Below, in pieces: positions 17,348 through 62,379 of a stretch of DNA of 64,000 bases. The DNA lies in NCBI GenBank assembly GCA_938023075.1, contig CALHDG010000130.1, positions 19,851 to 83,850 of the forward strand, read 5' to 3'. The DNA comes from an uncultured Chitinophagales bacterium. Its GTDB lineage: Bacteria; Bacteroidota; Bacteroidia; Chitinophagales; JAHDHT01. Numbering within the stretch: the first letter of the stretch is position 1; each line of letters starts with the position of its first letter. Under the pieces are notes generated by a model. That model saw nothing but the letters and a program-made list of their open reading frames with translations, ran no database searches and had not been told where the DNA came from. The position numbers were made by a program, and so were the translations under genes.

Positions 17348-17470
17348 GTGCTGTCGGCTTAAAACTTGGTGTTGCATTAATTCTAACCCTACAATCGTCT
17401 GTAAAATCTTTATAATATTAGGTAAATTTATATAAACAATAAAATAGTTTACACTAATGCATTAGTTTTT

Positions 17471-17609
17471 TTGAAGCGAATCTTTTTAACTTTCTAATAA
17501 CGAGGGTCCCGCTTTCCGCTCAAATGCTATGGCTAAGCTCCAAAGCCAGCGCGACAATATAGCATAACCACTGCAATCGGGGCTAACAAGCAAACTTCGA
17601 TCGGCTTCA
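17471..17609. repeat. structured repeat family 1, copy 1 (core 17505-17585)
   Basis: Core GGTCCCGCTTTCCGCTCAA-ATGCTAT...ATAGCAT-AACCACTGCAATCGGGGCTA, 81 nt; outer TGAAGC/GCTTCA. Confidence 0.8.
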
Positions 17610-17640: not shown

Positions 17641-17715
17641 TGGGTGATACTGGATTCGAACCAGTGACCTCTGCCCTGTCAAGACAGCGCTCTAAACCAA
17701 CTGAGCTAATCACCC
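17641..17715 (-). tRNA. tRNA-Val (anticodon GAC)
   Basis: Reverse complement GGGTGATTAGCTCAGTTGGTTTAGAGCGCTGTCTTGACAGGGCAGAGGTCACTGGTTCGAATCCAGTATCACCCA folds as a cloverleaf; anticodon loop TTGACAG. Confidence 0.9.
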
Positions 17716-24369: not shown

Positions 24370-24737
24370 TCAAAACACGACACCTTTTCAAAACAGATGT
24401 CACCTCTACCTTGTCAGAGTCTCTTGAAGAGTAGGTTGATTAATCTGTTTTAAATAAAGCACGGTATTGAAGCCGGGTGAAGTTGGAAAGTTAACCCTGA
24501 TAGGAACGGTTATGCTATGATGCAGCGTTGCCTTTTGAAGTATAGCCATAGCATTTGAGTGGATAGCAGGGAGCGCGTTCTTAAATACTGCTCCGGGTTC
24601 GTTTCTAAAAAATAAACAGATTAGATAGGTTAGTTCAAAGTAAAAATTATGAAGCCATCGTTTCTTCTTGCTTAGGTTGTGCACGTTTGGAAGATGATTT
24701 GCGATAACCCTTCCCTTCAATCATCAGTTTAGCTATG

Positions 24738-58401: not shown

Positions 58402-58491
58402 AAATTTTTCATTTGGCTAAATAGTTTGCATTTATGATCTCGGTTAAACTATCCAAACAATAAAATAGTTGACACTTTTGATTTATTTTTA

Positions 58492-58635
58492 TTTGAAGCG
58501 AAACCAGGAAACATTATAAAAACGTGGGTCCCGCTTTCCGCTCAAATGCCGTTTGCTAACGCACAAAAGCCAACGCTTCAACGGCATAACCGCTGCAATC
58601 GGGGCTAGTTTAAAAACGTCGGTTCTTCGTAGAAA
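58492..58635. repeat. structured repeat family 1, copy 2 (core 58527-58607)
   Basis: Core GGTCCCGCTTTCCGCTCAA-ATGCCGTT...AACGGCAT-AACCGCTGCAATCGGGGCTA, 81 nt. Confidence 0.85.
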
Positions 58636-58784
58636 AAAAACGCAGCACTCGAAAACAGAAAAGTATCAACCACATTGATAAACTTGTCAAAATTTGAAAC
58701 TAATATTACATTCAGAAGTCTTGACCCCACGTAAAATGAACAGCTCGGTAAATTGTAAGTTTGTAGTATGATTTGGCAAGACCT

Positions 58785-62069: not shown

Positions 62070-62160
62070 AGAAAAATTATTAATTGGTGATTTTTTTTAA
62101 TTTATAATTCGACAGGTTTATCTAAGCCATAAATGTAGTTAACACCTTTTTCAATTTTTT

Positions 62161-62300
62161 TTTGAAGCGAAACTTTGTAGCATTGTAATAACGTAGGTCC
62201 CGCTTTTCGCTCAAATGCAATTGCTATGCTTCAAAACCTGCGCTGCAAAATTGCATAACCGCTGCAATCGGGGCTAATTTAAAAACTTCGGCGCTTCGTA
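62161..62300. repeat. structured repeat family 1, copy 3 (core 62196-62276)
   Basis: Core GGTCCCGCTTTTCGCTCAA-ATGCAATT...AATTGCAT-AACCGCTGCAATCGGGGCTA, 81 nt; outer GAAGCG/CGCTTC. Confidence 0.85.
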
Positions 62301-62379
62301 CAACAAAAAAAAAGATGACAATCCAAAACAAGAACGTACGTATCAACCACTTCGCTAAACTTGACGATAATTTTAAAAT

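Follow-up and report, generated by a model that had tools for sequence, protein, structure and literature searches.

The Flavo-1 motif (RF01705) was first published by Weinberg et al. in 2010, where it was listed as a probable RNA (PMC2864571), and in F. psychrophilum its matches fall without distinction in sense or antisense orientation to transcribed regions, with many lying outside them (PMC9723704). Bacterial MITEs, such as those of Porphyromonas gingivalis (PMC4596501, PMC5771137), are short, non-autonomous elements with inverted ends that reach many copies, likewise in the Bacteroidota. REP/BIME elements with RAYT genes, including the GTAG and CGTC types (PMC3733652), are dispersed, imperfect DNA hairpins of intergenic space. 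The repeat described here shares with Flavo-1 its core sequence, its paired positions, a full-length model match and a Bacteroidota host, but it lies inside a MITE with terminal inverted repeats (TIRs) and target-site duplications (TSDs), is present in hundreds of copies, and yields evidence favouring DNA over RNA. Its likeness to the P. gingivalis MITEs is one of general features, as distinct from compared ends, and unlike them it carries a conserved, covarying hairpin. Moreover, while it resembles REP/BIME elements in being a dispersed intergenic hairpin, it is longer, bears TIRs and TSDs of 8 bp, which are marks of DDE transposition, and shows no linkage to a RAYT gene. A search of the literature returned no account of this MITE with its ends and duplications, of Flavo-1 nested in it, or of Flavo-1 behaving as mobile DNA. 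The MITE variant is new; the motif that it carries is known, and the element constitutes no new class.

The window analysed is a stretch of 64,000 nucleotides from the genome of an uncultured Chitinophagales bacterium, and it contains the following features:

17425..17609, + strand: copy 1, a decayed MITE with its left part recognisable and its right end lost
17501..17588, - strand: Flavo-1 hairpin in copy 1 (34.6 bits)
24489..24577, + strand: fourth, diverged Flavo-1 hairpin without MITE ends (28.6 bits)
58442..58688, + strand: copy 2, a MITE whose right end (58671-58688) is good and whose left end has diverged, so that its start is approximate; profile matches at 58450-58521 (left) and 58611-58688 (right)
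58523..58610, - strand: Flavo-1 hairpin in copy 2 (40.0 bits)
62111..62365, + strand: copy 3, a complete MITE with both TIRs (left 62111-62127, right 62348-62365)
62192..62279, - strand: Flavo-1 hairpin in copy 3 (39.0 bits)

A preliminary description of this DNA had placed three cores of exactly 81 nt on the + strand at 17505-17585, 58527-58607 and 62196-62276, and these coordinates and this length are confirmed, as is the intergenic location of all three. The two near-invariant strings that it reported occur in every core with at most one mismatch, and each has three matches in the window at up to three mismatches where shuffled sequence leads one to expect 0. Its count of three copies holds for these cores but overlooked a fourth, diverged copy; its core, on the - strand at 24492-24570, scores 39.6 bits against a local profile. 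The conserved 5' and 3' flanks that it noted are real in an alignment of copies and correspond to transposon ends together with the outer stem of the hairpin; the full unit reaches past them, to approximately 251 bp. The 5' side of the long-range GAAGC/GCTTC pairing that it proposed is about 98% conserved across the genome. Copy 3 is flanked by the 8-mers TATAATTC and GATAATTT, which are identical at 6 of 8 positions. A tRNA gene (17641-17715, - strand) ends some 30 bp from copy 1, on the side of the missing right transposon end. When the window copies were folded as single sequences, none did better than its shuffles (z-scores from -1.1 to +1.0), and the structural claim therefore rests on comparison and covariation.

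All four window copies match the Rfam Flavo-1 model over its full length (model positions 1-76) in an E-value search, with scores of 28.6-40.0 bits that lie below the gathering score of 42; at the gathering threshold the window yields a tRNA only. Many other copies in the same genome exceed the gathering score, reaching 65.9 bits, and membership in Flavo-1 is for this reason sound despite the sub-threshold scores in the window. The motif runs on the strand opposite to that on which the three cores had been described. Flavo-1 had been named as a candidate for comparison, and the suspicion of a widespread RNA or mobile element was well placed: the core is a Flavo-1 homologue, and the unit around it is a mobile element with TIRs and 8-bp TSDs. 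Across the order, Flavo-1 matches are patchily distributed, occurring in 75 of 249 genomes. The repeat is one already catalogued, with no function known.

Within the 6.12-Mb draft genome, a 17-mer from the core occurs 402 times at up to two mismatches, almost evenly divided between forward (199) and reverse (203) orientations, and its reversed control gave no match in the same draft. The 17-mer is carried by 135 of the 156 core matches found in 1.39 Mb of sampled sequence, which extrapolates to about 465 copies, a rough figure since the sample was picked around matches. The genome total is some 400 to 500 copies, and at least 402. The prospect that only the three original copies would be found, with no further covariation, is contradicted by these numbers and by the covariation considered below. 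With genes called by a simple ORF-based procedure, 98 of 108 copies are intergenic; gaps between divergent genes are under-used (p 0.03), and the enrichment in convergent gaps is not significant (p 0.09). This gene context fits tolerated insertions that avoid promoters. A local cluster was seen in genome G000 (C102, L228), where four high-scoring Flavo-1 matches of mixed orientation lie within about 4.3 kb, at 44-48.4 kb.

Alignment of well-preserved copies reveals abrupt boundaries at GACAAGTTTATCTAAAC... on the left and ...CACTTTGATAAACTTGTC on the right, a consensus length of 251 bp, and 12-bp TIRs (GACAAGTTTATC / GATAAACTTGTC). Among 29 two-ended copies, the 8 bp immediately outside both ends have a mean identity of 0.677, as against 0.387 (sd 0.035) with shuffled partners, and identity falls to 0.49 when 7 bp are taken and to 0.44 at 9 bp. 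This peak at 8 bp of AT-rich flank indicates a target-site duplication of constant length. At 251 bp, non-coding, and with 402 occurrences of its core 17-mer, the unit has the small size and high copy number of a MITE. Elsewhere in this genome, identical ends enclose interiors that are unrelated (181, 276, 292 and 294 bp), and perfect 8-bp TSDs accompany three of these; a genome from another family (G357) has 56 right-type ends, in MITEs that show no evident Flavo-1 core. Because the ends recur on unrelated interiors, one transposition system appears to have spread several MITEs, the Flavo-1 version among them. In G357 (L214:976-2280), same-ended MITEs are nested or clustered, with interiors unlike Flavo-1 and one perfect 8-bp TSD (GATTTAGG). 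A transposase with these ends was not found in the sampled regions: IS256 is absent, and IS1595 and ISL3 elements are without these ends. The missing autonomous partner may have been lost from the draft assembly or be extinct here. Carriage by phage or plasmid was likewise considered, and gave no matches.

The hairpin is not confined to this MITE. MITE flanks accompany 103 of the 156 sampled core matches, or about two thirds, and the 53 that are without them retain the hairpin in a different setting, in most cases along with the T-run, the outer-stem partner and the GAAGCGAAAC arm. Among these 53 is a second MITE-like subfamily, seen by alignment only, with its own imperfect inverted ends, near TTAACCTGG. 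Furthermore, in the two other genomes that gave readable alignments (G052 and G046), the short hairpin alone is shared, without these MITE ends. A scan around the Flavo-1 copies of four other genomes, in small samples with uncertain boundaries, gave no TSD above its noise. We infer that the hairpin predates this MITE, being a separate mobile or selected module that the MITE captured. Among complete MITEs, identity is 0.99 in the hairpin-arm blocks and 0.98 in the outer arm, compared with about 0.85-0.92 in the terminal repeats and 0.61-0.91 elsewhere; this contrast suggests that the hairpin is under selection beyond what transposition demands, although recent common ancestry may be partly responsible. 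At several loci (L087:4082-4559, L061:3371-3440, L086:226-296, L222:6849-6919 and L151), the 3' arm of the hairpin after CTGCAAT is replaced or interrupted by another repeat, starting TCTATCTAAGTGTCTTTC; at L087, MITE ends stand on both sides of that repeat. The apical loops of G000 copies consist of two variable modules of the GCYNNSGCTNCA type (e.g., GCCAACGCTTCA), the complement of which, TGAAGCG, resembles the outer stem arm.

Positional turnover could be followed at one site. In G123, one Flavo-1 copy closely follows a gene whose product, as we read its sequence, appears to end like pyruvate kinase; the 17 other genomes of the genus all contain this gene. Homology in the 17 congeners stops at about the end of the gene, before the Flavo-1 element, and no Flavo-1 was detected at the 13 congeneric loci that were scanned. 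The sequence downstream is unmatched as well, and no precise empty site was seen at this one site. The comparison shows an absence of positional conservation at the site tested, as distinct from a precise empty site.

What remains to be weighed is the nature of the hairpin. Its basal pairs are Watson-Crick in all 135 distinct copies compared from this genome, and one pair alternates between T-A (108), A-T (25) and G-C (2); among 62 copies from other genomes, the same pair is T-A, A-T, G-C or C-G in 57, against 20 expected. The consensus structure of Flavo-1 is therefore backed by covariation, in copies that are related to one another. Such conserved structure, together with the original listing as a probable RNA (PMC2864571), speaks for a trans- or cis-acting structured RNA, the "sRNA" of Rfam, whose many gene copies happen to have been spread by a MITE. 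RNA structure usually shows more G-U pairs, along with a strand bias. Here G-U accounts for 9 of 310 cells (3%), compared with 14% in the stems of local tRNAs, a small control of 7 genes. The cross-genome set does favour G-U over A-C on the Flavo-1 strand by 9 to 3, a difference that is not significant and that comes from copies found with a model tolerating G-U but not A-C; pooled, the counts are 20 and 18, with no clear asymmetry between strands. Low G-U and the want of strand bias favour pairing as DNA, on this comparative evidence and short of proof. The even split of copies between strands, their hundreds, their unconserved position at the site tested and inconsistent transcription in F. 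psychrophilum (PMC9723704) likewise argue against an RNA gene, and we consider that reading unlikely.

Dispersal by a RAYT (HUH, Y1) transposase, with the hairpin a REP-like element and capture by the MITE a later event, would accommodate an imperfect hairpin in hundreds of copies, bare hairpins without a detected TSD, and the nine Y1_Tnp matches in this genome; in G076 (L166), moreover, one RAYT-like gene adjoins a Flavo-1 copy (705-1277 and 1514-1574), a second copy lying some 2.2 kb off in inverted orientation. However, copies flank none of the RAYT-type genes in this genome, and the sole neighbour is an IS200-like element that was apparently inserted beside a copy. At that locus (L151:1459-2084), the element, with a Y1_Tnp ORF of 149 aa and hairpins on both sides, directly adjoins the Flavo-1 T-run. 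For lack of linkage we rejected a RAYT/REPtron origin, which seems to us improbable. A role as transcription terminators or as stabilisers of mRNA 3' ends could draw on the intergenic location and the scarcity of copies in divergent gaps, but the convergent enrichment falls short of significance, and the TSDs mark the unit as an insertion. Furthermore, on the + strand the T-run precedes the stem and an A-run follows it, leaving no U-tract 3' of the hairpin on either strand. Termination was rejected on account of this misplaced T-run, and we hold the terminator or stabiliser reading to be very improbable.

The best explanation, in which we place considerable confidence, is that of a non-autonomous MITE of about 251 bp with the Flavo-1 hairpin at its centre, mobilised in trans, the hairpin being captured and acting mainly as folded DNA. 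The MITE would have been copied through intergenic DNA by a DDE transposase of the cut-and-paste type that another element provided in trans, and the hairpin would have been taken up as a module of earlier and separate origin, itself mobile or under selection. The hairpin would act mainly as folded DNA, either as a single strand or as a cruciform, because Watson-Crick pairing is maintained, wobbles are few and neither strand is preferred.

These observations suggest that Flavo-1, instead of being a small RNA gene of the ordinary kind, is a DNA hairpin that moves. Only tentatively would we go further and propose that, rather than an RNA, Flavo-1 is a hairpin module of mobile DNA, selected for the fold that it takes as a single strand. 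On this view, two or more MITE families whose ends differ have captured it in this genome, and selection maintains it inside them, perhaps because a protein of the host or of the transposon recognises it. A very abundant MITE system is identified, the ends of which recur in the genome of another family. For the Bacteroidota, where Flavo-1 is annotated as a small RNA with no assigned function, carriage by a transposon and a DNA-like hairpin present a testable alternative, and they serve as a warning against taking Flavo-1 matches for RNA genes.
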